From the NCBI GenBank assembly GCA_013816855.1, contig JACDDT010000006.1, positions 1-59,642 of the forward strand: a stretch of DNA of 59,642 bases, given 5' to 3'. The translations under genes and the position numbers were made by a program. The notes under the pieces are model-generated. The model ran no database searches. It saw only the letters and a program-made list of their open reading frames with translations, and had not been told where the DNA came from. Shown piece after piece: positions 1,425-56,126 of the stretch. Source of the DNA: Gemmatimonadaceae bacterium (lineage in GTDB: Bacteria > Gemmatimonadota > Gemmatimonadetes > Gemmatimonadales > Gemmatimonadaceae). Positions within the stretch are counted from its first letter, which is position 1. Each line of letters starts with the position of its first letter.

Positions 1425-1430
1425 TAGCTT
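1425..1430 (+). promoter_or_regulatory. TAGCTT -10-like hexamer before mlaD
   Basis: TAGCTT lies seven bases before the mlaD ATG, and no Shine-Dalgarno sequence is present in the gap. It matches the TAnnTT pattern seen in front of several other genes here. I see no convincing -35 element. It may be an internal promoter giving a leaderless mlaD transcript. Confidence 0.4.
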
Positions 1431-1437
1431 TTAAGCG

Positions 1438-2415
1438 ATGAAGCGATCCACCGCCCTCACCTGGGACCAGCTCAAAGTCGGAGCGCTGATACTCGTCGCG
1501 CTCGTGATTCTTGCGTTGACTGTGTTCAAGCTCGGTCAGGCTGCCAGCCTGTTCACCAAGCGCTACACGCTCGTCTCCTTCGTTCCGAACGCGACGGGTC
1601 TTCGCGTGGGCGGTGGCGTAACCGTGGCGGGACAGCTCGCGGGGAATATAAAGGCGATTGATTTTCTCCCCGTTGACGCGGACACGACTCGAAATCTCAA
1701 AATCATCGTCGAGGTAAACCGGAAGCTCGCCGATCAGGTGAGAAAGGATTCCAAGGCGAAGATCAAAACCCTGGGCCTTCTTGGCGACAAAGTCTTCGAC
1801 ATTGCGCCTGGCACGCCGAGGTTCGCTTTGCTCAAGGACGGCGACACCATTCCCGTGGCGCCATCGGTGGATTACGAAGCAGTCGTGCAGCAGGCCTCCG
1901 GCGCCATCGCGGAAGTGACGCTGTTGACGAAGGATCTGAAAAAGGTGACGGCCGGCATCAATCGCGGGGAAGGAACGCTCGGACAGCTGGTCACCAACCG
2001 CGCGCTGTACGACCAGGCGACGAGCGCTCTCGCGCGCACGAGCTCGCTCATGGCGCAGCTCGAGAACCCGCGCGGCACCATAGGCCACCTGTTGAACGAT
2101 CCCTCGCTGTATTACAGCTTGAATCGGACGCTAGGCTCGGTCGACACACTCGTTGCGCAAATCAACTCGAGCCAGGGAACGCTTTCGAAGCTGCTCAAGG
2201 ACGACACCCTTTACACGCACCTCGTGAGCGTCGTCGCTACGACGGATACGCTCGTGCAGCAGATGGCCCACGGCAAGGGAACAGTCTCGAAGCTCTTCAC
2301 CGATGACGAGCTTTACAACCAGCTCGTGATCGCGGTGAGCGAGCTGAATAAGGTCTTGGTGGACGTGCGACGTGATCCGCGCCGATACACCAAGGGAATG
2401 ATCAAGGTCTTCTGA
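1438..2415 (+). CDS. mlaD: MlaD-like MCE-domain protein with 34-residue repeats
   Basis: This is the membrane-anchored, substrate-binding MCE protein of the lipid transporter. One transmembrane helix covers about residues 14-32, followed by a single MCE domain at about 42-140 (with the GLRVGGGVTVAG segment). The C-terminal half is predicted helical and holds four tandem copies of a motif of the form GxGTLxxLLxDxxLY. They start at residues 177, 211, 245 and 279, an exact period of 34. In MCE proteins such helical regions can form tunnels or coiled coils across the periplasm. The gene lies 27 bases after mlaF. No MlaC or MlaB gene follows, so those parts are absent or elsewhere. Confidence 0.9.
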   Translation: MKRSTALTWDQLKVGALILVALVILALTVFKLGQAASLFTKRYTLVSFVPNATGLRVGGGVTVAGQLAGNIKAIDFLPVDADTTRNLKIIVEVNRKLADQVRKDSKAKIKTLGLLGDKVFDIAPGTPRFALLKDGDTIPVAPSVDYEAVVQQASGAIAEVTLLTKDLKKVTAGINRGEGTLGQLVTNRALYDQATSALARTSSLMAQLENPRGTIGHLLNDPSLYYSLNRTLGSVDTLVAQINSSQGTLSKLLKDDTLYTHLVSVVATTDTLVQQMAHGKGTVSKLFTDDELYNQLVIAVSELNKVLVDVRRDPRRYTKGMIKVF

Positions 2416-2420
2416 GCTCG

Positions 2421-3419
2421 ATGCAGCAGTACGATCTCGACGTCATTGTCACACGCGGAAAGGAAGTCGAGTCGACACATAGGGTGCACGCAGCTGTTGT
2501 GGGTCCCGGCGACGAGCTCATCGGCTCGGCACGTGATTCTGAATCGTTCACCTATTGGCGTTCGTGCGCTAAGCCGTTTCAGGTCATTCCTTTCATTCAG
2601 TCCGGCGGCTTCGACGAGCTCGATTGGGGCGACGAGCAGCTCGCAATCGCCTGCGCGTCCCACGGCGGTGAGCCGGAGCACGTCGCGCTCGTAGGACGCA
2701 TGCTGGACGATATCGGCCTCGAGGAGGGCGATCTTTCGTGCGGACCGCACGAGCCGCAGTCGCAGCGCGGAGCGCGAATTCTTCGCGAGTCAGGCGCCCG
2801 GCCGACGCGCCTGCACAACAACTGCTCGGGCAAGCACGCGTCGATGCTCGCTGCCGCGCAGCACAACAAGTGGCCGCACAAAGGGTATGAGCTCGCTGGG
2901 CACCCCGTCCAGAAAACAATTCTCAACGAAGTCTCACTCTGGACCGACATCCCTTCCACGAAGATCGTGCAGGCGGTCGATGGCTGTGGTGTCGTGGTCT
3001 TCGGGATGTCGCTTGAGAGGATGGCTCGTGCCTACTCGCGCTTCGCTATGGCAGCGTCGCGCGGCGACGAGTCTCCGAAGTGCGTTGTCACCGCGATGAC
3101 AAAGCACCCCTTTCTCGTCGGCGGTACCGATCGCACCGACTCGATGCTCATCGAAGGAACCAATGGAAAGGTGATTTCCAAGGTCGGAGCGGAGGGGGTG
3201 CATTGCGCCATGATCCCCGAGCGGGGAATCGGCCTCGCAGTCAAAGTCGAAGATGGTGCGCAGCGGGCACAGGTTCCCGCTCTCCTCTACCTCCTCGAAA
3301 AACTCGGCGCGCTTCCCGATGGGCCGCCGGACGGCCTCAAGTCATTCCTGCATATGCCGATCAAGAACACCCGCGGAGAGTGTGTCGGCGAAGTGATGAT
3401 GCGTGCCGATGGGCGATGA
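2421..3419 (+). CDS. L-asparaginase, Rhizobium etli AnsA type
   Basis: This belongs to the asparaginase II family (Pfam PF06089), unrelated in fold to the E. coli enzymes, which hydrolyses asparagine to aspartate and ammonia. The residues described for the R. etli enzyme appear at the same numbers: Ser48 and Lys51 in RSCAKP, Ser80 in CASHGG, the metal-site Cys135 and Lys138 in NNCSGKH, and Cys189 in DGCG. At 332 residues it is of normal length and has no signal peptide, so it should be cytoplasmic. It begins five bases after mlaD and overlaps the next gene at its 3' end. I leave the symbol empty because naming differs between species. Confidence 0.88.
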   Translation: MQQYDLDVIVTRGKEVESTHRVHAAVVGPGDELIGSARDSESFTYWRSCAKPFQVIPFIQSGGFDELDWGDEQLAIACASHGGEPEHVALVGRMLDDIGLEEGDLSCGPHEPQSQRGARILRESGARPTRLHNNCSGKHASMLAAAQHNKWPHKGYELAGHPVQKTILNEVSLWTDIPSTKIVQAVDGCGVVVFGMSLERMARAYSRFAMAASRGDESPKCVVTAMTKHPFLVGGTDRTDSMLIEGTNGKVISKVGAEGVHCAMIPERGIGLAVKVEDGAQRAQVPALLYLLEKLGALPDGPPDGLKSFLHMPIKNTRGECVGEVMMRADGR

Positions 3420-4068
3420 CATCGAAGCGCTGCCAGCAGGTATCGTAACGGAATCTTCAGTCGAGGCGATCTGCCTCGTCCGCGTTGCGGCGGCTGTCGC
3501 CGCTCTCGATGAGACTGCCGTGAGAAAAGAAATGAAAGCTGCCCACAACCGCGTTGATCCTGCTTTCGTCGAAGAAGTCATCCTCCAGTCATATCTGTTC
3601 GCCGGTTTCCCCCGGGCGCTGAATGCGGCGCGCATTTGGCGGACCTTCTCACGTGAGGCGGCAGCTGCAACGCTTGAGCAGGCGGATGACATCGCTGGCT
3701 GGCGCGAAAATGGAAAGCGGACGTGTGAAACGGTTTATGGGAGCGCGTACGAAAAACTTCGCACCAACATCCGCGAGCTTCATCCGCTCCTCGACGATTG
3801 GATGATCACAGAAGGGTATGGGAAGGTGTTGTCACGTCCGCAGCTGAGCCTGAAGCTTCGGGAGCTGTGCATTGTCGCGGCGTGCGCGGCATCGGGTCAG
3901 CAGCGCCAGCTTCATTCACATCTCCGCGGCGCGCTCAATGCCGGGGTTTCACCCGATGCCGTCGAGCGCACGCTCGACGCACTCTCGGATTTGATCTCCG
4001 CCGACCGGCTCGTGTCATACAAGCTGCTTTTCGCTCGTGTGAAACGGGGAGGCAGCGATGTTCATTGA
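3409..4068 (+). CDS. Carboxymuconolactone decarboxylase (CMD)-like protein
   Basis: The C-terminal part (about residues 130-200) matches the CMD/AhpD-like helical fold: a region reading LSLKLRELCIVAAC followed by QLHSHLRGALNAG and a DAVERTL segment. The CxxC pair that gives AhpD its peroxidase activity is missing, so a thiol peroxidase role is unlikely. The N-terminal 90 residues are helical and not recognised. I chose ATG at 3409; a GTG two codons upstream (3403) is equally possible. Both overlap the asparaginase stop, and the gene end overlaps obg by 11 bases, so it is co-translated with both. The real substrate is unknown. Confidence 0.72.
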   Translation: MGDDIEALPAGIVTESSVEAICLVRVAAAVAALDETAVRKEMKAAHNRVDPAFVEEVILQSYLFAGFPRALNAARIWRTFSREAAAATLEQADDIAGWRENGKRTCETVYGSAYEKLRTNIRELHPLLDDWMITEGYGKVLSRPQLSLKLRELCIVAACAASGQQRQLHSHLRGALNAGVSPDAVERTLDALSDLISADRLVSYKLLFARVKRGGSDVH

Positions 4069-5077
4069 CCGCGTGGTGGTGCGGGTTGAGGCGGGAACCG
4101 GCGGATCCGGGTGCACCTCCTTCCGCCGCGAGTTTCGCGTTCCGATGGGCGGGCCCGACGGCGGTGACGGCGGCCGCGGTGGCGACATCTTCGTTCGCGG
4201 CGATTCGAATCTTGCGACCCTCCTCGACTACACGTATCGCGATCGATGGGTCGCGGAGCGCGGCGAGCACGGCATGGGCTCAAACAAGAGCGGTCACGCG
4301 GGCAAAGACATCATTCTTCCTGTGCCGCCCGGTACGGTGCTACGTGACGCTGACACAAAAGAGTTGATCGGCGAGATTCTCGATGACGGTCAGGAGATTC
4401 TCATCGCACAAGGCGGGCGCGGCGGAAAGGGAAACTCCTTTTTCGCGACCGCGACGCACCAGGCTCCGCGTGAATGGCAGCCCGGGGAAGAAGGGCAAAT
4501 CCGGAGCCTCGAGCTCGAGCTCAAGCTCATTGCCGATATCGGCCTCGTCGGCCAACCGAACGCGGGGAAGTCTACGCTGCTTTCAGTGATCTCCGCAGCG
4601 CATCCAAAGATCGGCGACTACCCGTTCACGACGCTCTCGCCAAACCTTGGCGTGGTGCAGCTCAGCGACGGCCGCACATTCGTCGTAGCCGACATTCCTG
4701 GCATCATCGAGGGAGCGCACGAAGGGAAGGGGCTCGGACTCCAATTCCTCCGCCACATCGAGCGCACTCGACTCCTCGCGTTTCTCGTTCCCATCGACGC
4801 GATGGATTGGCAAGCGGAGTACGATCAATTGCGAGCGGAGATCGCGGCGTATTCCCGTGACCTTGCCGCAAAGCCGCACTGCGTTGTTTTCACCAAGCTG
4901 GACCTGCTCGGCGAGAGCTACGTCCCGCCGATCGAGGCGCCTGGCGCCTTTGGGATTTTCTCGATCAGCGCGCCCGGAAGACAGGGCCTCGACGCGCTCA
5001 CGGCAGCTTGGTGGACAGAGCTTCTCAAGCTCAAGCACCAAGCCATTGCTAAAGCCGCAACCCCTTCGCTACCCTAG
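4058..5077 (+). CDS. obgE: GTPase Obg/CgtA, ribosome assembly
   Basis: Obg is an essential GTPase that acts in late assembly of the 50S subunit and in stress signalling. The glycine-rich Obg domain fills residues 1-158 (GGPDGGDGGRGGD at about 31-43). The G domain follows, with G1 GQPNAGKS at 165-172, switch I FTT at 190-192, G3 DIPG at 212-215 and G4 TKLD at 279-282. At 339 residues it lacks the C-terminal OCT domain of the B. subtilis protein. A good Shine-Dalgarno sequence (GGGAGG) precedes the ATG, which lies inside the end of the CMD-like gene. dprA follows three bases after the stop, a common kind of neighbour pair. Confidence 0.97.
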   Translation: MFIDRVVVRVEAGTGGSGCTSFRREFRVPMGGPDGGDGGRGGDIFVRGDSNLATLLDYTYRDRWVAERGEHGMGSNKSGHAGKDIILPVPPGTVLRDADTKELIGEILDDGQEILIAQGGRGGKGNSFFATATHQAPREWQPGEEGQIRSLELELKLIADIGLVGQPNAGKSTLLSVISAAHPKIGDYPFTTLSPNLGVVQLSDGRTFVVADIPGIIEGAHEGKGLGLQFLRHIERTRLLAFLVPIDAMDWQAEYDQLRAEIAAYSRDLAAKPHCVVFTKLDLLGESYVPPIEAPGAFGIFSISAPGRQGLDALTAAWWTELLKLKHQAIAKAATPSLP

Positions 5078-5080
5078 CTT

Positions 5081-5965
5081 TTGCAAGGGCCACCTCAAGC
5101 AACTTCTGAGGTAGTCGGTCATGAGATTCTTCGCCGAGGGGAGGAGCGTTTCCCCGCCGCACTAAACGATTTATCCACCCCGCCGCATCAGCTCTTCGCA
5201 CTCGGCGACATCTCGCTTCTTGCAAAGCCTGCGGTCGCAATTGTCGGAACCCGGGACTCCACGCACTACGGTGAGAGAACCTGCCGGAATCTTGCGCGCG
5301 ACCTTGCCCGCGCGGGTGTATGTGTCGTCAGCGGAATGGCGCGCGGCATCGATGGGACCGCGCATCGAACTGCTTTGGAATTTGGCGGCGCGACGGTCGC
5401 CGTTCTCGGAACCGGCGTTGATGTTCCATACCCCGCAGGCCACCGCCGCCTTCACAGTGAGATCGCCGCACGCGGACTTGTGCTATCCGAGAATCCGCCG
5501 GGCCAGACCGCTCAACGTGGCTCTTTCCCAAAGCGCAATCGGCTCATCGCTGCGCTGGCGAGTATAACCGTCGTCGTCGAAGCGGGCCATAAGAGCGGCG
5601 CACTCAACACGGCGACTCATGCGCTCGATCTCGGACGCGTTGTCGCTGCTGTGCCGGGACAGATCGATTCGGATCAAAGCGCTGGAGCCAACCAGCTCAT
5701 CCGTGACGGCGCGGTTGTCATCACATCTTCAGCGGATTTACTGGCGCTGCTCGGCCTCGCCGAGGCACCGCCGGAAAGAACTCTTCCCACGCTGCCCGAG
5801 AACGAGCAGCGCGTGTGGCAAGCCATCGGCTTCAACTTCACCGACTCCGATGCAATCGGTCTCAAGACAGGCCTTGCTGCGCCGGAGTGTCTCGCGGCCA
5901 TCACTTCTCTCGAGCTAATGGGTATCGTCGAGTGCAGCCTCGCGGGAGAAGTGCGGAGGCGGTAA
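5081..5965 (+). CDS. dprA: DNA-processing protein DprA
   Basis: DprA loads RecA onto incoming single-stranded DNA during natural transformation. The Rossmann-like core is clear: VGTRDSTHYG, SGMARGIDGTAH, the LGTGVDVPYP stretch, FPKRNRLIA and GHKSGALNTA. At 294 residues it lacks the N-terminal SAM-like domain of longer homologues, but keeps a short C-terminal winged-helix-like segment (about 245-294). The only plausible start is TTG at 5081, directly after a TAGCTT hexamer and four bases after the obg stop. Presence of dprA suggests, but does not prove, competence; no other competence gene is in view. Confidence 0.93.
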   Translation: MQGPPQATSEVVGHEILRRGEERFPAALNDLSTPPHQLFALGDISLLAKPAVAIVGTRDSTHYGERTCRNLARDLARAGVCVVSGMARGIDGTAHRTALEFGGATVAVLGTGVDVPYPAGHRRLHSEIAARGLVLSENPPGQTAQRGSFPKRNRLIAALASITVVVEAGHKSGALNTATHALDLGRVVAAVPGQIDSDQSAGANQLIRDGAVVITSSADLLALLGLAEAPPERTLPTLPENEQRVWQAIGFNFTDSDAIGLKTGLAAPECLAAITSLELMGIVECSLAGEVRRR

Positions 5966-5993
5966 CGACCGCGAGGCGCTGACCACCAGCATT

Positions 5994-5999
5994 TATATT
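5994..5999 (+). promoter_or_regulatory. TATATT -10 hexamer before hemW
   Basis: TATATT ends six bases before the hemW GTG. The 40-base gap after dprA has no Shine-Dalgarno sequence at the start codon. The spacing would put the transcription start at or next to the GTG, giving a leaderless message. No good -35 element is visible. Confidence 0.5.
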
Positions 6000-6005
6000 G
6001 AGAAC

Positions 6006-7154
6006 GTGAACCCGCGCCACCTCTACATTCACGTTCCGTTCTGCGCCCGCCGCTGCGTGTACTGCGATTTCAGTATCGCCGTCAGGCGCATAACGCCCGT
6101 CGATGAATACATCGCCGCGCTTCGGGCCGAGCTGAGCACGCACGAACGCGGCGGCGACTGGAATCTCGACACTGTCTACCTCGGCGGCGGAACACCGTCC
6201 CGTCTTGGCGCCACTGGAATAGCGGAGGTGCTCGACCTTGTGCGCGAGCACGCCAAGATTGAGCCGACGGCGGAAGTAACCATCGAAGCGAATCCAGAGG
6301 ATGTTACTCTAGCCACCGCCGGCGCTTGGCGCGCAGCGGGAGTGAACCGGGTGTCACTCGGGGTGCAATCGTTCAACGATGAAGTTCTGAAATGGATGCA
6401 CCGGAGTCACACCGGCGCCGACGCTGAATCGGCGCTCAGAGCATTACGCGGCGCCGGAATCAACAACGTCTCCATCGATCTCATCTTCGCTTTGCCCGAA
6501 GCTCTCCGGCGCGTTTGGCTCGATGACCTCACGCGCGCGATCGCGCTTGATCCGCCTCACATCTCCGTATACGGACTCGCGGTCGAGCCCGCGACACCGC
6601 TCTCGCGCTGGGTCTCCGCCAAATCAGTGAAGCCCCTGGATGAGGATCCCTACGCGGAAGAATTCCTGACCGCGGACAAAATGCTTTCCGGCGCCGGCTA
6701 TTCGCATTACGAGGTTTCGAACTACGCGCGCGAAGGAATGAGGTCGCAACACAATTCGTCGTATTGGTCGGGGGCGGAATATCTCGGGCTGGGGCCATCC
6801 GCGCATTCGCTGATCGGCAACGAGCGAAGATGGAATGTGCGGAATTACGCGGAGTGGCAGACCCTCGCGCTATCGGGAGAATCGGTCGTCGCCGGCTCGG
6901 AAATTCTGACGGATGAGCTTCGCAGTCTTGAAAGTATTTACCTCGGACTCAGGACTAGCTCGGGTTACCACCGCCGCGGCACCGACACGGATCGAGTGAA
7001 CCGCTGGGTGAGCGCGGGGTGGTGTTCGGTCGCCGAAGACGTCGTCAAGCTCAACGCGTCCGGGTGGCTCCGTCTCGATGCGCTAGCGGCGGACCTGGGG
7101 GGAACAAGCTCCGGCCGCAACTATATTAGTAGCCATGGGAGTTCCGCAGCTTAG
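6006..7154 (+). CDS. hemW: HemW, radical-SAM heme chaperone
   Basis: HemW is related to oxygen-independent coproporphyrinogen oxidase, but in characterised cases it delivers heme to respiratory enzymes. The radical-SAM cluster cysteines are Cys13, Cys17 and Cys20 (CARRCVYC) close to the N-terminus, followed by YLGGGTPS and, later, QHNSSYW and GLGPSAHS, both typical of the HemW branch. The length of 382 residues is usual. The start is GTG; its 3' end overlaps hrcA by 20 bases. True HemN has an N-terminal extension that is absent here, so HemW is the better name. Confidence 0.93.
   Translation: MNPRHLYIHVPFCARRCVYCDFSIAVRRITPVDEYIAALRAELSTHERGGDWNLDTVYLGGGTPSRLGATGIAEVLDLVREHAKIEPTAEVTIEANPEDVTLATAGAWRAAGVNRVSLGVQSFNDEVLKWMHRSHTGADAESALRALRGAGINNVSIDLIFALPEALRRVWLDDLTRAIALDPPHISVYGLAVEPATPLSRWVSAKSVKPLDEDPYAEEFLTADKMLSGAGYSHYEVSNYAREGMRSQHNSSYWSGAEYLGLGPSAHSLIGNERRWNVRNYAEWQTLALSGESVVAGSEILTDELRSLESIYLGLRTSSGYHRRGTDTDRVNRWVSAGWCSVAEDVVKLNASGWLRLDALAADLGGTSSGRNYISSHGSSAA
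7122..7127 (+). promoter_or_regulatory. TATATT -10 hexamer before hrcA
   Basis: TATATT lies within the last codons of hemW, seven bases before the hrcA ATG, again with no Shine-Dalgarno sequence. It is likely an internal promoter allowing hrcA-dnaJ to be transcribed without hemW. No CIRCE inverted repeat is present nearby. Confidence 0.5.
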
Positions 7155-8193
7155 CGAGAGGGAAAGACGGGTTTTGGAGGCGGTCGTCCAGACGTACGTC
7201 GAGACGGCGCAGCCTGCCGGCTCGAAAGCGCTCGCGGAGCGTTTCGCATTCGGAATTTCTTCCGCCACCATTCGCAGCACGATGAGCGACCTCGAGGAGA
7301 AGGGATTTCTCTTTCACCCTCACGCGTCCGCCGGGCGCATCCCGACCGACGTGGCTTACCGCGTCTACGTTGATTCGCTCATACCTGTGCCGTCACTCCC
7401 GAACGATGAGCGCCGCCGCCTAAGCGCGCGCATCGCAACGGGAGCGTCGGCCGTCGAGGCGATTCTCCATCGCGCAGCGCAGAGTCTCGGGATTCTTACG
7501 CAAGAGCTCGGCATCGCCCTCGGGCCCCGGCTCGACAATTCCGTGCTCGAACGGATCGAGCTCATCCGCGTGTCGGCGGAGCGATTGCTCGTCGCGCTGA
7601 CGCTTACGCGCGGGGCGGTGCGAACGATCTTCGTCGACGTGAAGGGCGAGATTGCGGACGCTGCCATTCTCGAAGTCACCGCCGTTCTCAACGAGCGGCT
7701 CGCCGGACTTTCGCTGCGTGAGATCGCAATCTCTCTTGGAGAACGTCTCCGCGACACATCAGCGGGGCGCGACGCTACCGAGCTGCTCAATGTGTTCGTC
7801 GAAGAAGGGGATCAGGTTTTCGATTCCTCTCCAGACGGACAGGCGGTTCTTCTCGGACAGGCATCGGTGCTCGCCGAGCAGCCTGAGTTCGCCAGTGTGG
7901 ACAGCATGAGGAAGCTCGTCGCTCTCACCGAGACGCGCGAAAAACTCGCCGATCTCCTGCGGCGGAGAAGCCACACCGCGGGCCTGTCGATAACGATCGG
8001 CATGGAGCACGAAGATCCTGGTCTCGCGAACTTCACCGTCGTCACCGCTCCGTATCATGCGGGCCCGCTCACCGGCGTCATCGGCGTCATCGGGCCGACG
8101 CGGATGCCGTACGACAAGGTGATCTCGCTCGTGAAACACACATCCGATCTCGTGAACGATTTACTAAAGGAAAGTCCGCGCGCTCATGGCTGA
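7135..8193 (+). CDS. hrcA: HrcA heat-shock repressor
   Basis: HrcA represses chaperone genes by binding CIRCE operators, with GroEL modulating its activity. An N-terminal winged-helix domain is visible at about residues 1-75: [21 protein letters not shown], then [17 protein letters not shown] and [11 protein letters not shown], all hallmark stretches. A GAF-like domain follows. The length of 352 is normal. It overlaps dnaJ by eight bases. In many bacteria hrcA-grpE-dnaK-dnaJ are contiguous; here grpE and dnaK are missing between hrcA and dnaJ. Confidence 0.96.
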
Positions 8194-9325
8194 TTATTAC
8201 GAGACCCTCGGCGTCGACCGCACGGCCAGTGATGACGAGATCAAGAAGGCATACCGCAAGCTGGCGATGACGTATCACCCAGATCGCAACAACGGGTCTC
8301 TGGAAGCGGAAGAAAAATTCAAGAGCATTACCGAGGCGTACGACGTTCTTCGCGACGCGAATAAGCGCGCGACTTACGACCGCTACGGCGAGGCGGGACT
8401 CAGAGGAGGGGCGGGCGGATTCCACCACGTCGATCTCTCCGAAGCGCTCAGCATCTTCATGCGGGACCTTGGCGGGTTGGGCGGCCTCGGATCTTTCGGC
8501 GATTTGTTCGGTAGCGCGGGAGCACGCGGCAGCGGACTAAGAACTGGCTCGGACACTCGTCTCACGTTGAGACTCACTCTCGCCGAAGTTGCTTCGGGAG
8601 TGGAGAAGACGGTTTCAGTCCGGCTGCTACGCGAATGCGATCGCTGCTCCAGCACAGGCGCCGAAGCGGGCACGTCGTCCGCGGTCTGTACCACTTGCGT
8701 CGGCACGGGTGAGGTGAGGCGGGCGCAGCGTTCGTTCTTCGGTCAGATGATCAGCGTTGCACCTTGCCCGACATGTGCGGGCGAAGGACGCATCATCTCG
8801 TCGCCCTGCAAGCAGTGCAAAGGCGAGGGGCGGGTGAAAAAGGCTGAGGAGATAACCGTTGCGGTTCCTGCCGGCGTCGCAACCGGTCAGTACATGACGC
8901 TGCGCGGTCTCGGGAACGTAGGTCCGCGCGGCGGCCCCCGCGGTGATCTGCTCGTGGTATTTGAAGTCGAGGAAGACGAGCGGTTCGAAAGGGAAGGCGA
9001 GGATCTCTACTGCGAGATTCTCGTCACCTACCCGCAGCTGGCGCTCGGAGGCGACGTCAACGTGCCAACGGTGTCGAGCACGGTGAATCTCCGCATTCCC
9101 GCCGGCACCCAGAGCGGTCAGGTTTTCAATCTTCGCGGGCGAGGCCTTCCGCGAGTGAACTCTACGGGCATCGGAGATTTGCACGTCCGGCTTCAGCTGT
9201 GGACTCCTGACAAGCTGTCCGCGGAAGAGGAAACCATCATGAAGCGGCTCTTCGAGCTGCAGAGCGAGCCTCCCGAGCGCGCGAAAGGTCTCTGGTCGAA
9301 GATCAAGGAATCGCTCGGCGCGTGA
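8186..9325 (+). CDS. dnaJ: DnaJ chaperone (Hsp40)
   Basis: DnaJ stimulates the DnaK ATPase and presents unfolded clients. It has a J domain with HPD at residues 31-33, a Gly/Phe-rich linker at about 70-120, and a zinc domain of four CxxC pairs at 151/154, 168/171, 194/197 and 208/211. Two C-terminal substrate domains follow. The first CxxC motif reads CDRCSSTG and so lacks the usual glycine after the second Cys. A Shine-Dalgarno AAAGGAAAG precedes the start inside hrcA. The stop overlaps the prmA start. No dnaK is in this window, so its partner is encoded elsewhere. Confidence 0.96.
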
Positions 9326-11190: not shown

Positions 11191-11270
11191 CCCTCTCTCA
11201 GTGTACGGCTAAGTTGTTATGTCTGTACACATTCCGGCGCCGAAAGCGCTACGAAGGGGGGAAGTAGATT

Positions 11271-24620: not shown

Positions 24621-24626
24621 TATTTT
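24621..24626 (+). promoter_or_regulatory. TATTTT -10-like hexamer before the DnaQ-like gene
   Basis: TATTTT ends eight bases before the ATG at 24635, with no Shine-Dalgarno sequence in between. A weak TTAGTC lies 18 bases upstream (24597-24602). It fits the leaderless pattern seen at other genes in the window. Confidence 0.42.
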
Positions 24627-26848: not shown

Positions 26849-26854
26849 AATTTA
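26849..26854 (-). promoter_or_regulatory. TAAATT -10 hexamer before the VOC gene
   Basis: On the minus strand TAAATTTG precedes the ATG; the hexamer ends six bases before it. This equals the TAnnTTTG -7 consensus described for Bacteroidetes promoters. There is no Shine-Dalgarno sequence and no evident -35 element. Confidence 0.5.
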
Positions 26855-28345: not shown

Positions 28346-28400
28346 AGGGGGCTCAGTCTTCGCCGATAATACGTCGAAGGCCGGGCCCCCTTTAATTTTT
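28346..28400 (+). terminator. Hairpin with T-run between rplT and pheS
   Basis: AGGGGGC (28346-28352) pairs with GCCCCCT (28385-28391), and an inner stem CTTCG/CGAAG lies at 28358-28379. TTTAATTTTTT follows directly. It looks like a terminator for the ribosomal operon or an attenuator for pheST. The T-run also contains TAATTT seven bases before the pheS GTG, so the same bases may serve as a -10 element on DNA. Confidence 0.62.
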
Positions 28401-42652: not shown

Positions 42653-42661
42653 GGTAACGCT

Positions 42662-47353: not shown

Positions 47354-47364
47354 CCTCAGCGGCT

Positions 47365-47370
47365 TAAATT
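47365..47370 (+). promoter_or_regulatory. TAAATT -10 hexamer before accD
   Basis: TAAATTT ends six bases before the accD ATG, within the 23-base gap after rodA. There is no Shine-Dalgarno sequence. I find no -35 element at the proper distance. It fits the leaderless pattern. Confidence 0.45.
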
Positions 47371-47376
47371 TCCTGG

Positions 47377-48240
47377 ATGGCCTGGTTCCGGAAAGAGAAA
47401 AAGCCCCGTTTACCCCGGCACGAAAAGCACGAAATCCCTCCCGATGCCTGGGAGAAGTGCGAGATCTGCGGGCACACCGACATCCGCGAGAAGTTCGAGC
47501 GGAATCTCAACGTGTGCCCGAATTGCGGCCATCACCGCCGCATCAGGGCGATCGAGTATGCGAACATCCTCCTCGACGACGGCACCGCGGATGAGACCGA
47601 GATGGACATCCGGTCCACCGACCCGCTCGGCTTTCCGGAATACACCGCACGCCTGAAGAAGGCAACGAACTCGGCCGGTGAAGGCGACGCGATTCTCACC
47701 TTCACCGGAAAGCTCGGTGACATGCCGGTATGTCTCGGCGTAATGGACTTCGCGTTCATGGGCGGGTCGATGGGCTCCGTCGTCGGAGAAAAGATCGCGC
47801 GCCTTGGCCAGCTCTCACTCGAAAAGAAGTATCCGCTGATCATCATCTCCGCATCGGGCGGCGCGAGAATGCAGGAGGGTGTGCTTTCTCTGATGCAGAT
47901 GGCAAAAGCGGCGGCGATGCTCTCGCAGCTTTCCGAAAGAAGAGTCCCGTTCGTTTCCATTCTTACCAATCCCACCACGGGCGGCGTAAGCGCTAGCTAC
48001 GCTATGCTGGGTGACGCGATCGTAGCCGAGCCTGGCGCGGTCATCGGTTTTGCAGGTCCGCGTGTCATCAAGCAGACGATCGGCCAGGAGCTACCCGAAG
48101 GATTTCAAACGGCGGAGTTTCTCCTCGAGCATGGAATCGTCGACGTCGTCTGCGCCCGAAAGGATTTGAAGCAGACGGTTGGCCAGCTCCTTCGGCACAT
48201 GACCGGCAAGGCGGCAGCCACCGGCTGGTCGACCGCCTGA
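47377..48240 (+). CDS. accD: Acetyl-CoA carboxylase carboxyltransferase subunit beta
   Basis: AccD is half of the carboxyltransferase of acetyl-CoA carboxylase, the first step of fatty acid synthesis. A zinc ribbon (Cys28, Cys31, Cys47, Cys50) stands at the N-terminus. The crotonase-fold core shows SASGGARMQEGVLSLMQMAK and NPTTGGVSASYAMLGD. At 287 residues it is normal. accA is not adjacent. accD-folC is a common pair; the folC coding frame continues past the accD stop. Confidence 0.96.
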   Translation: MAWFRKEKKPRLPRHEKHEIPPDAWEKCEICGHTDIREKFERNLNVCPNCGHHRRIRAIEYANILLDDGTADETEMDIRSTDPLGFPEYTARLKKATNSAGEGDAILTFTGKLGDMPVCLGVMDFAFMGGSMGSVVGEKIARLGQLSLEKKYPLIIISASGGARMQEGVLSLMQMAKAAAMLSQLSERRVPFVSILTNPTTGGVSASYAMLGDAIVAEPGAVIGFAGPRVIKQTIGQELPEGFQTAEFLLEHGIVDVVCARKDLKQTVGQLLRHMTGKAAATGWSTA

Positions 48241-49520
48241 CAACAGAGGGATTTCGTTCCGCGATAGACGCGCTCTTCGCGAGAACCACCGCGGGCACGA
48301 AGTTCGGCCTCGAGCGCACGCAACAGCTTCTCAAAAGTCTCGGGAATCCGGAACGCCGCTTCAAATCGATTCACGTCGCCGGCACCAACGGAAAGGGCAG
48401 CGTCGTCGCGATGTGCGATGCGATGTTCCAGGCGAAGGGACTGCGCGTCGGCAGGTATACATCGCCGCACCTCATCGATTTCCGGGAGCGGATTCTCGTG
48501 AACGGGGAGCCGATAAGCGAATCGGCGGTGCTCACATTCCTCGAGCGGACGACGCCTCTCGCGGAGAAAATCGGAGCGACGTTTTTCGAGCTAACTACCG
48601 CTCTTGCATTCGCTCACTTCGAGGCAGCGCACGCCGATGTCGCGGTAATCGAGACGGGGCTGGGAGGCCGCCTCGACTCGACGAACGTCATCACTCCGGT
48701 CACTGCCACCGTCACATCGATCGGGCTGGATCACACCGACCTCCTCGGCGACACCATCGAGCTCATCGCGAAAGAGAAAGCAGGAATCTTCAAACCGGAC
48801 GTGCCTGCGATCGTCGGGGACACGAACCCGGAAACAATATCGATACTTCGTGCGAGCGCTGCGGCAGTGGGGGCGGCCCCTATCCGCGTTGTTGCGCACG
48901 AGCTTCAGCTTTCGCGCGTAACAGTGTCGTCTGCGGGAACATCGTTCGTGCTCGAAACGAAAATGGGGTTGCGCGCTTTGCGCACCAATCTGGTTGGTGC
49001 GCATCAATCTCAGAATGCCGCCGTGGCGATTGCAACGGTGCGCGCGGCGACTCGCGGCCTGGAGCCCGAGTGGGATGAAATCGAGAGAGGTCTGGTGAAC
49101 GCGCGTCTTCCCGGGCGATTCCAGATGCAGGGGAGATACATCTTCGACGTCGCCCACAACCCGGCGGCAGCTCGGACTCTAACCCAGACTCTGAACGCTG
49201 TCGCACCGCAGCGGCCGATGAACGCGGTGATCGCTGTACTCTCGGACAAAGATTGGCGCGGGGTGCTACGCGAAATCGGGCCCCTGGTAGACCGCGTGAT
49301 CATCACCCACGCGCCCTCTGCGCCTCCCGAGCGTCAGTGGGACATCGATGCAGCGATGGCGTATTGCGGCGAAATCGGTGTGAATTGCGTGTGCGAGGCC
49401 GAACTCGACGACGCGCTTCGCCTCGCGCGCGACGGGGCCGCGACGGTGCTCGTGACGGGGTCCTTTCATACTGTCGGAGATTCGATGTCGCGCTTGCAGG
49501 TATCTCCTTTCGTCCCATAG
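48237..49520 (+). CDS. folC: Folylpolyglutamate / dihydrofolate synthase, probable CTG start
   Basis: FolC adds glutate to folate. The ATP-binding loop HVAGTNGKGSVVAM and later VIETGLGGRLDSTNVI and GLDHTDLLGDT are conserved. FolC normally has about 40-55 residues before the loop; here the homologous stretch (FGLERTQQLLKSLGNPERRF) is in frame, but no ATG, GTG or TTG occurs before 48411. The best start is CTG at 48237, forming a CTGA overlap with the accD stop, which gives 427 residues. ATG 48411 would cut the protein inside its P-loop region. Function is sure; the start is an inference. Confidence 0.9.
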   Translation: MTTEGFRSAIDALFARTTAGTKFGLERTQQLLKSLGNPERRFKSIHVAGTNGKGSVVAMCDAMFQAKGLRVGRYTSPHLIDFRERILVNGEPISESAVLTFLERTTPLAEKIGATFFELTTALAFAHFEAAHADVAVIETGLGGRLDSTNVITPVTATVTSIGLDHTDLLGDTIELIAKEKAGIFKPDVPAIVGDTNPETISILRASAAAVGAAPIRVVAHELQLSRVTVSSAGTSFVLETKMGLRALRTNLVGAHQSQNAAVAIATVRAATRGLEPEWDEIERGLVNARLPGRFQMQGRYIFDVAHNPAAARTLTQTLNAVAPQRPMNAVIAVLSDKDWRGVLREIGPLVDRVIITHAPSAPPERQWDIDAAMAYCGEIGVNCVCEAELDDALRLARDGAATVLVTGSFHTVGDSMSRLQVSPFVP

Positions 49521-49523
49521 CTT
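49494..49523 (+). promoter_or_regulatory. Predicted hisS promoter
   Basis: TTGCAG (49494-49499), an 18-base spacer and TAGCTT (49518-49523), which ends six bases before the ATG. No Shine-Dalgarno sequence is present between. It predicts transcription starting at or next to the start codon. Confidence 0.55.
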
Positions 49524-49529
49524 TCCCGA

Positions 49530-50798
49530 ATGTCACGCGGACCGTTGCCAGGATTCAGGGATTTTTATCCCGAGCAGCTCGCCGAGCGCGCTTATATAAC
49601 CGGCGTGTGGCGTGACATAGCGAGACGATTCGCCTTCGTTGAGTACGACGGCCCCCCGCTGGAAACTCTCGAGCTGTATACGCGGAAGAGCGGCGAAGAG
49701 ATCGTCGGGCAGCTTTACAACTTCACGGACAAGGGCGACCGCGAAGTTGCTCTTCGCCCGGAGATGACGCCGACGTTGGCGCGAATGGTGGCGGCGAAAG
49801 CAAACGCTCTCAGAAAGCCCGTGCGCTGGTTTTCCATTCCACAGCTCTTTCGATATGAGCGCCAACAGAAGGGAAGACTGCGCGAGCATTTTCAGCTCAA
49901 CGTAGACATACTCGGCGAGCCCGGCGTCACGGCGGATGCAGAACTCCTCGCCGTCGCAATCGAAATCATGCGCGCATACGGGCTTGGGCCGAAGGATGTT
50001 CGCGCTCGCGTCTCGGATCGCCGTCTTCTGAACGCGCTCCTCACCTCCGCCGGTGTGAAGGCAGACCAGCTCGGCCCCGTTTACGCGGCGATCGATAAAC
50101 TTGGCCGCGAGCCATTGGAAGTGACACGTGAAAAATGGCTAAAGGCAACGGGCGATGAAGATGTCGCGATACGTCTTGAACAAACGATCCTACAAAAGGA
50201 TTTCGGCAAGCTGCGCGCGACTCCTGAAATGGGAGCAGATGTTCACACGGCGATGGAGGAGTTCGGAAAGTACCTCGAGCTTCTCGACGCGCTCGGTGTG
50301 CGAGAATGGGTGGACTTCGATCTCTCTATAGTGCGCGGACTCGCTTATTATACGGGAACTGTTTTCGAGCTGTTCGATGCGAGCGGTGAGTTCCGCGCGA
50401 TCTGCGGCGGCGGACGCTACGACGATCTCCTCGATGCGATTGGCGGAGTGTCGATGCCTGCGCTGGGGTTCGGAATGGGCGACGTGGTGATCGGAGAGCT
50501 GCTCCGTGCCCGCGGCCTCATGCGCCGAAACGAAATCGGTCCGGATTACTGGATCGCATCGGATTCCGAAAAGCTGCTGTCGAAGGTGATGCAGGTAGCC
50601 TCGCGGGTGCGTGCGGCGGGGAAAAGCGCCGAATATTCGCTCCGCTTGCAAACGCTCTCGCGTCAAATGAAGACTGCGTCGTCCGCGGGCGCGCGAGAAG
50701 TGATCATCGTCGCGGCGGACGAAGCAGTTGCCGTCAAGAATCTTGCAGACGGCTCGGAGAAAAGACTGACACTTAACGAACTTATCGCATCGCTTTGA
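49530..50798 (+). CDS. hisS: Histidyl-tRNA synthetase
   Basis: HisRS is a class II enzyme. [13 protein letters not shown] at the start, motif 2 [30 protein letters not shown] and the histidine A loop [14 protein letters not shown] (about 271-284) identify it. A C-terminal anticodon domain of about 100 residues follows. Length is 422. ATG 49530 has no Shine-Dalgarno sequence and sits behind a TAGCTT element. proS follows seven bases later. Confidence 0.96.
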
Positions 50799-50805
50799 GC
50801 GACTA

Positions 50806-52275
50806 ATGGCCGACGACAAGAAGCTTCCTACACGCGCCGCTGATTTCAGCGCCTGGTACAACGAGGTGGTCCTCCGCTCGGAGTTGGCGGACTATTCGCC
50901 CGTCCGCGGCTGCATGGTGATTCGCCCACGCGGCTACGGCATCTGGGAGCGGATGCAGCGCCAGCTCGACACGATGTTCAAGGATACGGGCCATGAGAAC
51001 GCATACTTTCCGCTTTTCATTCCGGAGAGTTTTCTCAAGAAGGAAGCTCAGCACGTGGAAGGCTTTGCGCCGGAGCTCGCGGTAGTCACACACGGCGGAG
51101 GGAAAAAGCTGGAAGAGCCGCTCGTCGTGCGCCCCACTTCCGAGACGATCATCTACGCGATGTACGCGAAGTGGGTGCAGAGCTATCGCGACCTCCCCAT
51201 CCTCATCAACCAGTGGGCGAACGTGGTCCGCTGGGAGATGCGCACACGCCTTTTCCTGAGAACGACAGAATTTCTCTGGCAGGAGGGCCACACGGCGCAC
51301 GCCACTCCGGAGGAAGCGGAGGAAGAGACACGCAAGATGCTCGGCGTCTATCGCGATTTTATGGAAAGCTACATGGCGATGCCGGTCGTCACGGGAATGA
51401 AGAGCGACGCGGAAAAATTCGCCGGGGCAGTGCGCACGTACGCCGTCGAAGCGATGATGCAGGACAACAAGGGTCTCCAGGCGGGGACGTCACACAACCT
51501 TGGTCAGAATTTCTCGAAGGCGTTCGACTTCACATTCCAGACGGAAGCGGGCGGTACCGAGTACGCTTGGAATACGAGCTGGGGAGTGTCCACCCGGATG
51601 ATTGGCGGATTGGTCATGACTCACGGCGACGACAAGGGAATTCAGGTACCCCCGCTGCTCGCGCCAATTGAAGTCGTGATCGTTCCCATCTACAAAGCGG
51701 ACGACGAGCGCGCGCGCATGCTCGAGGCGGCAGAAAAGGTGCGCGCCGAGCTGCACGCCTGGGAGCGCCGCGCACCCGGCAAGCTCCGCGTGCACGTGGA
51801 TAAGCGAGAGGGAATCAAGCCCGGCGCGAAGTACTACGAGTGGGAGCTACGGGGAATTCCGATCCGCATGGAGCTTGGTCCGCGCGACATCGAGAAGAAT
51901 CAGGCGGTGCTCGTGCGCCGGGATACTGGAGTGAAGACCACGGTGAGCCTTGAGACGATCGGCGAGGACGTCGCTGATCTTCTCCACGCCATCCAGGACT
52001 CGATGCTCACCGCTGCACGTGACCGCCGCGAGAGTAACAGTTATCGCGGTGAGATCACCTACGAGCGGTTCCGCGAAATCATAGAGGGGCCTGGGGGCTT
52101 CGTTTACGCTGGATGGTGCGGTGGTGCTGCGTGCGAGGCCGCCATCAAGGAAGAAACGAAAGCGACCATTCGTGTCCTTCCCGATGAAGAGTTCAGATCG
52201 GCGGAGCCGATGAAGAACTGCCTTAAGTGCGGGGCGAACGCTGTCTTCGAGGCGCTGTGGGCGAAGGCGTACTGA
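50806..52275 (+). CDS. proS: Prolyl-tRNA synthetase, archaeal/eukaryote type
   Basis: This 489-residue ProRS is the shorter type found in archaea, eukaryotes and some bacteria, without the long bacterial editing insertion. The start region is [29 protein letters not shown]. Later come [31 protein letters not shown] and [18 protein letters not shown]. The C-terminal zinc-binding cysteines are in WCGGAACE and CLKCGA, and the protein ends AKAY, with the Tyr characteristic of this type. Confidence 0.96.
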
Positions 52276-52301
52276 CCGCGCCCGCAAGCGAGCGTCCTCG
52301 G

Positions 52302-53564
52302 ATGACCGCGCAGCGCATCGGATTCAACCGCACACGGGAAGGACTGCTCTGTGACGCAGTACCTGTCGAGCGCATTGCCAAGGAATGCGGCACGCCCGTC
52401 TACATCTATAGCGCGAGCGCAATTCGAGATCAGTACGCGCGCCTCGAGGAAGCACTCGGCAAACTGAACCATCGGCTTCATTACAGCGTCAAGGCGAATT
52501 CCAATCTCGCCATTCTCAAGCTCCTCAAAGAGCTTGGCGCGGGCGTGGACATCGTTTCAGGCGGCGAGCTCTATCGCGCGCTCCTCGCCGGATTCAAGGG
52601 AAGCGATATCGTCTTCAGTGGAGTCGGGAAGACCGAGCGCGAGATGGAAGAGGCGCTGCGTGCCGATGTGCTTCTTTTCAACGTCGAGTCGGATCAGGAG
52701 CTGCAGGTGCTGGCGGAGGTCGCGCAGCGGATGAACACACGCGCTCGCGTTGCGCTCCGTGTGAACCCTGAGGTGATGGTCGATACTCCGCATCCCTACA
52801 CGCGCACCGGCGGAAAGGGGATGAAGTTCGGGATCGCCTTCGACGAAGCTCTTATCGTTGCGGCAGCGGCGCTGAACCTGTCGAGCATCGAGCTTGTCGG
52901 GCTCGACATGCACGTCGGTTCTCAGATCTCTCAGCTCGCTCCATACGAAGCCGGTCTCAACAGGCTCCTTCACCTGCGCACGGAGATAGAGCGTAGCGCG
53001 AACGTGAAGCTCGAATATCTTGACATGGGCGGCGGACTCGCTGTCTCATATGAGTCCAACGATGCGATGGACGTCGAGGCATTCGGGAAAGGCATCAACA
53101 CTCTTCTCGGCGATATTGGGATGCGCGTGCTCCTCGAGCCGGGCCGTTTCCTGGTTGGCAATGCGGGCGCGCTCGTGACCAGGGTGCTGTACCGGAAGCG
53201 GAGCGGGGGAAAGAACTTCATAATCACCGACGCCGGAATGAACGATTTACTTCGCCCGTCGCACTACAACGCGTATCACCGTATCGAAGCGGTGGGCCAA
53301 ATCGGAGTGGGCACGATTGCCGATGTGGTCGGCCCCGTGTGCGAGAGCGGAGACTTCTTCGCTATCGACCGCCAGGTCGATGATGTGGTGCGCGGAGACC
53401 TCATCGCAGTTCACTCCGCCGGTGCCTACGGTTTCGTGATGGCGTCCAACTACAACTCGCGCCCTCGCCCGAGCGAAGTGCTCGTTGATGGCTCGTCATA
53501 CACAGTAGTCACGCGGCGTGAGACCTACGAAGATTTGGTGAGAGCCGAGCAGGGAGGCGGATGA
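52302..53564 (+). CDS. lysA: Diaminopimelate decarboxylase
   Basis: LysA removes CO2 from meso-diaminopimelate to give lysine. It is a PLP enzyme of alanine-racemase fold. The PLP lysine is Lys64 in HYSVKANSN. Other signatures are DMHVGSQI, DMGGGLAVSYE, EPGRFLVGNAGALVTRV and the active-site GPVCESGDFF. Length is 420. ATG 52302 was chosen, where the conserved start MTAQRIGFNR begins, 26 bases after proS. It overlaps the next gene by four bases. Confidence 0.96.
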   Translation: MTAQRIGFNRTREGLLCDAVPVERIAKECGTPVYIYSASAIRDQYARLEEALGKLNHRLHYSVKANSNLAILKLLKELGAGVDIVSGGELYRALLAGFKGSDIVFSGVGKTEREMEEALRADVLLFNVESDQELQVLAEVAQRMNTRARVALRVNPEVMVDTPHPYTRTGGKGMKFGIAFDEALIVAAAALNLSSIELVGLDMHVGSQISQLAPYEAGLNRLLHLRTEIERSANVKLEYLDMGGGLAVSYESNDAMDVEAFGKGINTLLGDIGMRVLLEPGRFLVGNAGALVTRVLYRKRSGGKNFIITDAGMNDLLRPSHYNAYHRIEAVGQIGVGTIADVVGPVCESGDFFAIDRQVDDVVRGDLIAVHSAGAYGFVMASNYNSRPRPSEVLVDGSSYTVVTRRETYEDLVRAEQGGG

Positions 53565-54052
53565 TGCGGATTGGAGTGATGGCTGACACGCACGACCGTT
53601 TGCCCGCGATAGAAGAGCTGCTCGCGAAGCTCACCGAGAAAGGCGCCAGCATGATCATGCACGCAGGCGACTACTGCTCTCCATTCGCGTTGGCGCCCTT
53701 CCAGAAAGCCGGCATTCCCCTCCTTGGAGTATTCGGCAGAAATGACGGCGACCACCAGACACTCGAAGCCACGGCCTCGCAGGGGTTCGGGGCAGAGATT
53801 TATGAGTCGCCGCACAGCTTCGAAGTCGGTGGGCACAAAATCATGATCGTGCACGAGCTCGGCGAGATCAACAAAAGGTCCATCGCATCCCACGATTTCG
53901 TGATTTATGGATCTACGCACAAGCTCGAGCAAACGAAGCGTGACAAGACTCTCCTTATCAACCCCGGCGAGGCGTGCGGCTGGCTCACGGGAAAATCCAC
54001 GGCGATGCTCGTCGATCTCGATTCGGGAGAGGTTGAAGTCATAACGCTATGA
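53561..54052 (+). CDS. YfcE/MJ0936-type metallophosphoesterase
   Basis: A 163-residue calcineurin-like phosphodiesterase. Metal ligands lie in [11 protein letters not shown] (DxH), [17 protein letters not shown] (GNxD) and IYGSTHKLE (GHTH-like, here GSTH). Relatives cleave phosphodiesters, but the natural substrate is not known. The double ATG at 53561 makes either codon a possible start. It is coupled to lysA and guaA by four-base overlaps. Confidence 0.9.
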
Positions 54053-55593
54053 GCAGCCGGATCCTCATCATCGATTTCGGCTCACAGTTCACACAGTTGA
54101 TTGCGCGCAGGGTTCGCGAAGCGCGCGTGTATTCCGAGATTCATCCGCCCACGCGCTCCCTCGAGTGGATACGCAGCTGGAATCCGACCGGGATCATCCT
54201 CAGCGGCGGCCCGAATTCGGTGTATGGCGAAAACGTTCCGCTCGCCGAACATGAGCTCCTCGACATCGCCCCGATCCTCGGCATCTGTTACGGTATGCAG
54301 CTCATCGCGCATCTCGAGGGTGCGAAGGTCATCCGGAGCGACAAGCGCGAATACGGGCGCGCTGAAACTAAAGTAATCGCGCCTGGCGGGCTGTTCGCTG
54401 GTTTCGACAAGGGCGAATCCCTTACCACGTGGACGAGTCACGGCGATCACATAGATGAGCCGCCAAAGGGCTATCAAGTAGTGGCGGAGAGCGCGAGAAA
54501 TCCGGTGAGTGCGTTCCGGCACGAGTCGCGCCCGATCTACGGAGTGCAGTTCCACCCCGAGGTCGCGCACACGCCACGCGGCGCCGAGCTCATCTCGAAT
54601 TTTCTTTTCGGCGTTTGCAACGCCGAGGCTTCGTGGACGCCGGGCGCGTTTGTTGAGGAAGAAATCACGAAGATCAAAAAGTTGGTAGGGAAGTCGCGCG
54701 TCATCTGCGGGCTTTCGGGCGGAGTCGATTCGTCCGTGGCCGCCGCCCTCGTCCACCGTGCGATCGGCGAACAGCTTACGTGCATCTTCGTAGACACAGG
54801 GCTGATGCGGCTTCACGAGCGGGACCAAGTAGAGCGCACCTTCAAGTCCAGCCTTGGAGTGAAGCTTGTCGCGGTGGACGCGTCGGAGCAGTTCCTCACC
54901 CGGCTCGCAGGGGTGAGTGAGCCCGAGGAGAAGCGAAAGATCATCGGGCATACCTTCATCGATGTTTTTGAGGAAGCGGCGGCAAAGGTCGGCGATGACG
55001 TGGATTTTCTGGTGCAGGGAACACTCTATCCCGATGTGATCGAATCCGCGTCGCCGTCTGGCGGTCCGTCGGTGACCATCAAGACGCACCACAACGTCGG
55101 CGGACTCAAGCCGGGAATGGCGTTCAAGCTCATCGAGCCACTTCGCGAACTATTTAAGGATGAGGTTCGGAATGTCGGGCGCGAGCTCGCTCTCCCGGAA
55201 GAGATGGTCGCGCGTCACCCGTTCCCCGGACCGGGGCTGGCGATTCGCATCCTATCTGACGTGACCAAGGAGAAGCTCGACCTTCTCCGCGCGGCGGATG
55301 CGATTTATCTAGAGGAGATTCGCGAGGCGGGACTCTACGATGAAATCTGGCAGGCGTTTGCGGTGCTGCTGCCGGTGCGGAGCGTTGGCGTCATGGGCGA
55401 CGAGCGCACCTATGAGAACGTTCTTGGGCTCCGCGCTGTCACCAGTGTGGATGGCATGACTGCGGATTGGTACCCATTTCCGCACGACGTGCTCGGACGG
55501 ATCTCGAACCGCATCATCAATACTCTGCCGGGAATCAATCGCGTGGTGTACGACGTGAGCTCGAAGCCTCCCGCCACGATTGAGTGGGAGTGA
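54049..55593 (+). CDS. guaA: GMP synthase, glutamine hydrolysing
   Basis: GuaA converts XMP to GMP. The class I amidotransferase domain has GICYGMQL with the catalytic Cys, and [11 protein letters not shown]. The ATP pyrophosphatase loop is [15 protein letters not shown] (about 222-236). The dimerisation domain ends PATIEWE. Length is 514. ATGA overlap with the phosphoesterase gene. It converges with the ptsN-like gene, one base apart. Confidence 0.97.
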
Positions 55594-55594
55594 G

Positions 55595-56047
55595 CTAGAC
55601 TCCCTTCTCCTTCAGCAGCTCCATGAATTCAGCGGGCTGCGCGAGCTTGAGCAGTCGCTCTGGAACGTCCGCCTCCTTGCTGAACTGAGCAATCTTCCCC
55701 AGCACGGGCAGATATTGGTTCGAGACTTCGAGCGGCGGCGCGACAATGAGAAAGAAAAAATTCACCGGCTTCTCATCGATCGCGGTGAAATCGAGTCCGT
55801 TCGTTTTCCTGCCGAATGCGACACGCAGCTTTGAAACGACGAGCGAGCGGCAGTGTGGAATGGCGATGCCACGGCCAATACCGGTTGAGCCAAGGTTTTC
55901 ACGCCGCTTCAGCATCTTGAATAGCATGCCTTCGGACTTGTCGTCCAAGCCGAGGAGGCCGATGAGCTCTTTAAGAACGTCGTCCTTCGTTGTGCCCTCT
56001 AGCTCGAGCTTAACGGCATCTTCCGAAAAAAAATCGCGTAGCTCCAT
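55595..56047 (-). CDS. PTS EIIA-Ntr-like protein (PtsN)
   Basis: This 150-residue EIIA domain is of the fructose/nitrogen type. The phosphorylated histidine is His65 in GIAIPHCR. Related proteins receive phosphate from PtsP/NPr and regulate nitrogen, potassium and stress pathways, and do not move sugar. No other PTS gene is in view. It is transcribed from a consensus-like promoter that ends six bases before its ATG, divergent from dus. Confidence 0.88.
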   Translation of the reverse strand: MELRDFFSEDAVKLELEGTTKDDVLKELIGLLGLDDKSEGMLFKMLKRRENLGSTGIGRGIAIPHCRSLVVSKLRVAFGRKTNGLDFTAIDEKPVNFFFLIVAPPLEVSNQYLPVLGKIAQFSKEADVPERLLKLAQPAEFMELLKEKGV

Positions 56048-56053
56048 TTCGCC

Positions 56054-56082
56054 AAGTTACCCGCGTCATCGGGCAGTGTCAA
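56054..56082 (-). promoter_or_regulatory. Consensus-like promoter of the ptsN-like gene
   Basis: Read on the minus strand: TTGACA (56077-56082), a 17-base spacer, TAACTT (56054-56059), then six bases to the ATG. The -35 is a perfect consensus and the spacer is ideal. Transcription should begin at or very near the start codon. No Shine-Dalgarno sequence is present. Confidence 0.8.
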
Positions 56083-56091
56083 ACGGTGTCG

Positions 56092-56120
56092 TTGCAAGCA
56101 CTTGAGAGCGTACTTAGCTT
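56092..56120 (+). promoter_or_regulatory. Predicted dus promoter
   Basis: TTGCAA (56092-56097), a 17-base spacer and TAGCTT (56115-56120), ending six bases before the GTG. It is back to back with the ptsN promoter; the two -35 elements are only nine bases apart. Confidence 0.7.
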
Positions 56121-56126
56121 CCAAAT

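Follow-up and report, generated by a model that had tools for sequence, protein, structure and literature searches.

The 59,642-nucleotide stretch of DNA analysed here (hereafter the window; positions 1 to 59,642 of contig JACDDT010000006.1, Gemmatimonadaceae bacterium assembly GCA_013816855.1) carries the hexamer TAnnTT at a nearly fixed distance before the start codons of ten genes. Is this hexamer a promoter element, and do the genes behind it produce leaderless transcripts, as proposed in an initial annotation of the window? Our analysis indicates that TAnnTT is very probably the -10 box of a housekeeping promoter, likely read by a Bacteroidota-type RpoD and so placed that a minority of genes yield leaderless mRNAs.

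All ten hexamers of the initial annotation were recovered, with the distances given there (Table 1). The 54 genes predicted in the window were scanned at each of their in-frame starts for TAnnTT at a gap of 5-9 (the gap being the number of bases between the end of the hexamer and the start codon), which returned exactly these ten sites. There is no overall excess of the hexamer, which occurs 67 times in the window vs 96 times in shuffled sequences; what is special is its position and not its abundance. Eight of the ten starts were also picked by a gene finder blind to the upstream sequence, and family models support the identity of the genes: MCE/MlaD, hemW, hrcA, a DnaQ-type exonuclease, a VOC/glyoxalase-like protein, pheS, accD, hisS, a PtsN/fructose IIA-like protein and dusB.

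The positional preference was then computed for the source genome, a Gemmatimonadaceae metagenome-assembled genome (MAG) of 2.47 Mb (170 contigs, GC content 59%), of which 1.82 Mb with 1,436 usable genes were analysed. Genes were predicted by a codon model without a view of the upstream region, and starts were picked by coding score and start-codon type. The hexamer precedes 52 starts at gap 6, with shoulders at gaps 5, 7, 8 and 9 (15, 14, 9 and 12 genes, respectively), although the sampling was slightly biased at first, towards contigs holding a gap-6 match, before further contigs diluted this effect. Other gaps gave 0-9 occurrences, with just 1-2 each at gaps 3, 4, 10 and 11. Dinucleotide shuffles gave a mean of 2.5 genes at gap 6 (standard deviation 1.7, maximum 7 of 100 shuffles) and column composition predicts 3.8; for gaps 5-9 together, 102 genes were found vs a shuffle mean of 11.5 (maximum 23). 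The genome-wide count of hexamers by distance thus bears out the claim that the offset lies far above chance. When ten kinds of four-base patterns were compared without bias over gaps 0-13, TANNTT at gap 6 came out on top (z = 24.7), followed by the Shine-Dalgarno (SD) word GGAG at gap 5 (z = 19.3); therefore, the genome uses both kinds of start. Compared with background, about 91 genes in excess (6% of those analysed) carry the exact hexamer, and about 19 more have three of the four bases, so that at least about 6% of the genes would be leaderless as judged from exact hexamers. A two-component expectation-maximization mixture (leaderless motif plus SD motif) was also tried as an estimate of the leaderless fraction; it was discarded because the true and the control region gave similar shares (0.30 and 0.38).

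The sequences further upstream identify the hexamer as part of a promoter. TTG is enriched 19-21 bases upstream of TAnnTT, and across all gene-upstream regions the TTGnnn-TAnnTT pair occurs 43 times at a spacing of 17, 17 times at 16 and 11 times at 18, with about 2-8 occurrences elsewhere (about 5 at spacings 11-15). The longer version, TTGAC, is found 14 times at spacing 17, 0-3 times at other spacings and not at all at 11-15. In 1.3 Mb of coding DNA, spacings 16-18 yielded no TTGAC version and 10 TTG versions. The related boxes TAnnAT, TAnnCT and TAnnGT showed little or no peak at spacing 17 (8, 11 and 7 occurrences, respectively, vs 43 for TAnnTT). It is therefore well supported that TAnnTT, as the initial annotation had it, is a -10 element, belonging to a housekeeping promoter with the consensus TTG(AC/C)-N17-TAnnTT. 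Among gap-6 matches to TAnnnT (n = 63), the fifth position is T in 52, A in nine, C in one and G in one. TAnnAT was considered as the main box of the source genome and rejected, given its 8 vs 43 occurrences at spacing 17 and similar counts at gap 6 and gap 14 (41 vs 47). The annotation had also likened the element to the Bacteroidetes -7 consensus with a TG extension; the hexamer itself fits this likeness, also by virtue of the sigma factor described below, but the extension does not, as gap-6 genes have T at -6 in 38% and G at -5 in 23% of cases.

Two further features separate the TAnnTT starts from the rest. The first is the exclusion of SD sequences, also predicted earlier: only 2 of the 102 genes with TAnnTT at gap 5-9 carry an SD word, compared with 388 of the 1,334 others (29%; P = 3e-12). 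The second is gene context. The signal is present in 14% of divergently transcribed genes (46 of 326, with 6 expected), in 12% of genes lying 15-49 bp after a same-strand neighbour, and in 2.5% of those less than 15 bp away, in line with the proposal that operon-internal genes rely on other signals. The hexamer is also directional, occurring 205 times in forward and 65 times in reverse orientation in the gaps between tandem genes, and is scarcer between convergent genes.

Proximity to the start codon and the lack of SD words would also be expected of a translation element, i.e. an AU-rich enhancer or S1 site within a leadered mRNA transcribed from a promoter further upstream, and for non-SD genes it has been suggested that AU-rich sequences upstream act as S1 sites (PMC5397173). 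We regard this as very improbable. The hexamer has a TTG partner at a strict 17-bp spacing and requires T, A, T and T at fixed places instead of general A/T richness. Comparison of ptsN orthologues separates the two functions. The pair TTTGAC and TAnnTT was retained in 24 of 29 orthologues (TAnnAT replaces the -10 box in three) with a nearly constant spacer of 17-19 bp, typically 18, while the distance from this pair to the start codon ranges from 6 to 105 bases. The hexamer thus tracks the -35 box and not the start codon, and is therefore predicted to be a promoter and not a translation signal in this gene. SD words are absent from the five orthologues with a gap of 6-8 and present in 9 of the 19 leadered ones. 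In the window, ptsN and dus are separated by a 79-bp spacer containing two back-to-back promoters (56054-56120), whose -35 boxes are 8 bp apart; this arrangement is retained in most relatives, though ptsN has usually acquired a leader.

A second alternative accepts the promoter and holds that the starts are mis-assigned, the true ones lying downstream behind ordinary leaders. Gene finders can indeed choose starts that are too far upstream, and pheS and the DnaQ-like gene are possible cases. As a general account this is again a slim prospect: chance start codons do not produce a peak at a single base (gap 6) relative to RTG, SD words are lacking at these starts, and those of hisS, accD and dus coincide exactly with the orthologous starts or lie no more than one to three codons away. 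At dus, TAnnTT was found at gap 5-9 in 27 of 30 orthologues (first start tried), mostly with TTGC 19 bases before it. At accD, the strict test of TAnnTT conservation gave just 6 of 30 orthologues, and CAnnTT occupies the same place in 17 more, so that 23 of 30 have [T/C]AnnTT vs 0.2 in shifted controls; CAnnTT is weaker evidence, because the variant was noticed after looking. In the accD upstream regions (L224-L253), the CAnnTT form is often accompanied by TTGC upstream and is perhaps a weakened -10 box.

At hisS, 75 of the 77 Gemmatimonadota loci carry TAnnTT with a gap of 5 or 6. In 68 of them, the hexamer opens with a triplet that serves as the in-frame stop of a long upstream frame. This stop is always TAG or TAA and never TGA, though 47% of the genes of the source genome end in TGA. 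The -35 TTG, which there also codes for the upstream protein, is retained in most orthologues. In nearly all relatives the hisS promoter thus constrains the stop-codon choice of the upstream gene. Although the TAG of the hisS TAGCTT is such a stop, it is scarcely credible that the hexamer arises in general from upstream TAG or TAA codons followed by T-rich sequence, plus chance, since divergent genes, without a same-strand upstream stop, are the most enriched, the enrichment persists after exclusion of genes that follow a stop by less than 15 bp, and at hisS the final TT is retained and TGA is never used. The closest relatives of the hisS product (up to 66% identity) come from Gemmatimonadaceae and other Gemmatimonadota MAGs. 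One locus (L104; CALQGY020000012.1), titled Candidatus Kuenenia stuttgartiensis, has a Gemmatimonadota-type hisS (60% identity) and probably stems from a mislabelled or mixed MAG.

Three RpoD-like sigma factor genes, encoding proteins of about 285-318 amino acids, were identified in the source genome. The best candidate has 285 residues and no room for region 1.1, and shares 53-57% identity with RpoD of Bacteroidota, about 44-46% with that of Firmicutes and 40-43% with that of Deinococcus. Its region 2.4 (-10-recognition) stretch is identical to those of Parabacteroides and Hymenobacter, while Enterococcus and Deinococcus differ in this stretch (FSTYATWWIRQAI(T/N)RAIADQARTIR). From these similarities we infer that the sigma factor reading TAnnTT is probably a short RpoD of the Bacteroidota type.

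The breadth of the signal was assessed in 121 genomes as the ratio of TAnnTT-6-ATG to TAnnTT-14-ATG, the gap-14 pattern serving as the control since the reversed pattern is a poor one. The ratio was 3.9 in the source family (above 1.5 in 43 of 43 genomes), 3.2 in a second family of the same order (27 of 29 genomes); in several further families of that class it was 1.4-2.1. TAnnAT at gap 6 showed a weak, 1.5-fold enrichment in the source family and the second family. In the single family sampled from another class (f9; G001, G003, G005 and G007), the ratio was 0.98, none of the four genomes exceeded 1.5, and neither TAnnTT nor TAnnAT was enriched at gap 6; this family may rely on a different promoter or have no leaderless genes. 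On balance, it seems rather probable that most of the class shares a TTGnnn-17-TAnnTT housekeeping promoter, read by a Bacteroidota-type primary sigma factor, which since the common ancestor has made leaderless mRNAs of conserved housekeeping genes, including hisS, dus and accD, and that the hisS -10 box became fused with the upstream stop codon, barring TGA, while ptsN lineages alternate between leaderless and leadered forms by shifting the start relative to a fixed promoter.

The following mechanism may be proposed. For a minority of the genes, at least about 6% overall and about 14% of the divergent ones, the -10 element would end six bases before the start codon, with 5-9 allowed. The sigma-A box of Flavobacterium, TAnnTTTG, spans -12 to -5 (PMC9723704), and in this register TAnnTT at gap 6 would make +1 coincide with the initial base of the start codon. 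RNA polymerase would then initiate at the start codon or within about three bases of it, and the resulting mRNA would have neither a leader nor an SD sequence. Its 5'-terminal AUG or GUG would be bound by a 70S ribosome, or by a 30S subunit loaded with initiator tRNA. Both modes of initiation on leaderless mRNAs are established in other bacteria. The remaining genes would be transcribed with a leader from this promoter or, inside operons, depend on SD sequences.

Several observations weigh against this account. The fraction of genes with TAnnTT is modest, and 946 of the 1,436 genes, i.e. most of those devoid of an SD word, have neither signal. The binding sigma factor has to be sought among three RpoD-like candidates. 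For genes with gaps of 8-9, a leader of 2-3 bases or a shifted transcription start site (TSS) is expected. A Gemmatirosa plasmid (73% GC, 497 genes), used as an independent set, gave just six matches at gap 5-8 and 0-1 at each other gap; it is too GC-rich, and its matches are too few, to weigh much. Within the window, doubt is greatest for the DnaQ-like and pheS starts, because the motif-blind gene finder preferred starts 12 and 30 bases further in, respectively, and the pheS family model alignment begins at residue 47 counted from the claimed start. Finally, the starts behind the leaderless reading are predicted ones. Overall, the leaderless interpretation of the initial annotation is supported; exact hexamers cover just about 6% of the genes, and from the register of the box we infer that their TSS would coincide with the start codon.

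Table 1. Predicted promoter elements upstream of the ten genes, in window coordinates.
Gene	Element	Motif	Position	Strand	Start codon	Gap	Remarks
mlaD	predicted -10	TAGCTT	1425..1430	+	1438 ATG	7	MCE/MlaD family
hemW	predicted -10	TATATT	5994..5999	+	6006 GTG	6	TIGR00539
hrcA	predicted -10	TATATT	7122..7127	+	7135 ATG	7	TIGR00331 from residue 7
DnaQ-like exonuclease	predicted -10	TATTTT	24621..24626	+	24635 ATG	8	start uncertain
VOC/glyoxalase-like	predicted -10	TAAATT	26849..26854	-	26842 ATG	6	
pheS	possible -10	TAATTT	28393..28398	+	28406 GTG	7	start uncertain
accD	predicted -10	TAAATT	47365..47370	+	47377 ATG	6	
hisS	predicted -35 core	TTGC	49494..49497	+			18 bp counted after six-base -35
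hisS	predicted -10	TAGCTT	49518..49523	+	49530 ATG	6	TAG doubles as stop codon of upstream gene
ptsN-like	predicted -10	TAACTT	56054..56059	-	56047 ATG	6	
ptsN-like	predicted -35	TTTGAC	56078..56083	-			18 bp to -10 box
dus	predicted -35 core	TTGC	56092..56095	+			TTGC to TAGCTT 19 bp (17 after six-base -35)
dus	predicted -10	TAGCTT	56115..56120	+	56127 GTG	6	

The predicted -10 box of hrcA lies within the 3' end of hemW, which ends at position 7154. The window also contains a tmRNA gene (58450-58807; tag ANSNLALAA), identified with ARAGORN.

Leaderless expression from an adjacent -10 box is a known minority mode, and the Gemmatimonadota case appears to be undescribed. A full-text literature search returned no description of promoters or leaderless genes in this phylum, though a 2025 survey (PMC12340547), which divides bacterial -10 motifs into five forms, may already count it; the table of Zheng 2011 (PMC3160421) has no Gemmatimonadetes row, and one paper on translation initiation places the gemmatimonad class by its anti-SD profile. 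Members of Gemmatimonadota are common in soil and few have been cultured. Knowing the promoter consensus and which genes are leaderless would help gene-start prediction in MAGs of the phylum and guide the design of expression tools. Moreover, ptsN offers a natural series in which one and the same promoter stands before leaderless versions of the gene and leadered ones, and a -10 box and sigma region common with Bacteroidota, combined with retained SD use, bear on how the latter abandoned SD sequences.

Three known systems may be compared with that of the source genome. According to two surveys (Zheng 2011, PMC3160421; Zhong 2025, PMC12340547), leaderless genes with an adjacent -10 motif are known mainly in Deinococcus-Thermus and Actinobacteria, and the Deinococcus motif was shown to act as a -10 box. 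In these groups, too, a TA-type -10 hexamer lies some 12 bases upstream of the start, such genes lack an SD sequence, and SD-led genes occur in the same genome. Their consensus is TANNNT, whereas the source genome has T at the fifth position, and leaderless genes average 19-39% in these groups vs about 6% by exact hexamer here. The canonical sigma-70 promoter, TTGACA-17-TATAAT, shares the -35 core and the 17-bp spacing, and differs in its -10 box, which in the source genome is TAnnTT with T, not A, at the fifth position in 52 of 63 cases. The third system, the Bacteroidetes sigma-A (sigma-ABfr; TTTG / TAnnTTTG; PMC7366714, PMC9723704), resembles that of the source genome in (i) TA and TT at -12/-11 and -8/-7, positions counted here from the start codon and not from a mapped TSS, (ii) an identical region 2.4 stretch in a sigma factor too short to include region 1.1, and (iii) TTTG or TTG near -33 (the TTG peak at spacer 17, and TTTGAC in ptsN). 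Very short-leader mRNAs make up just 3.7-5.5% in Bacteroides and Flavobacterium (PMC7366714, PMC9723704). In contrast to the Bacteroidetes system, the source genome has no TG at -6/-5, shows a clear -35 box (TTGAC/TTGC) at a 17-bp spacing and makes use of SD sequences.

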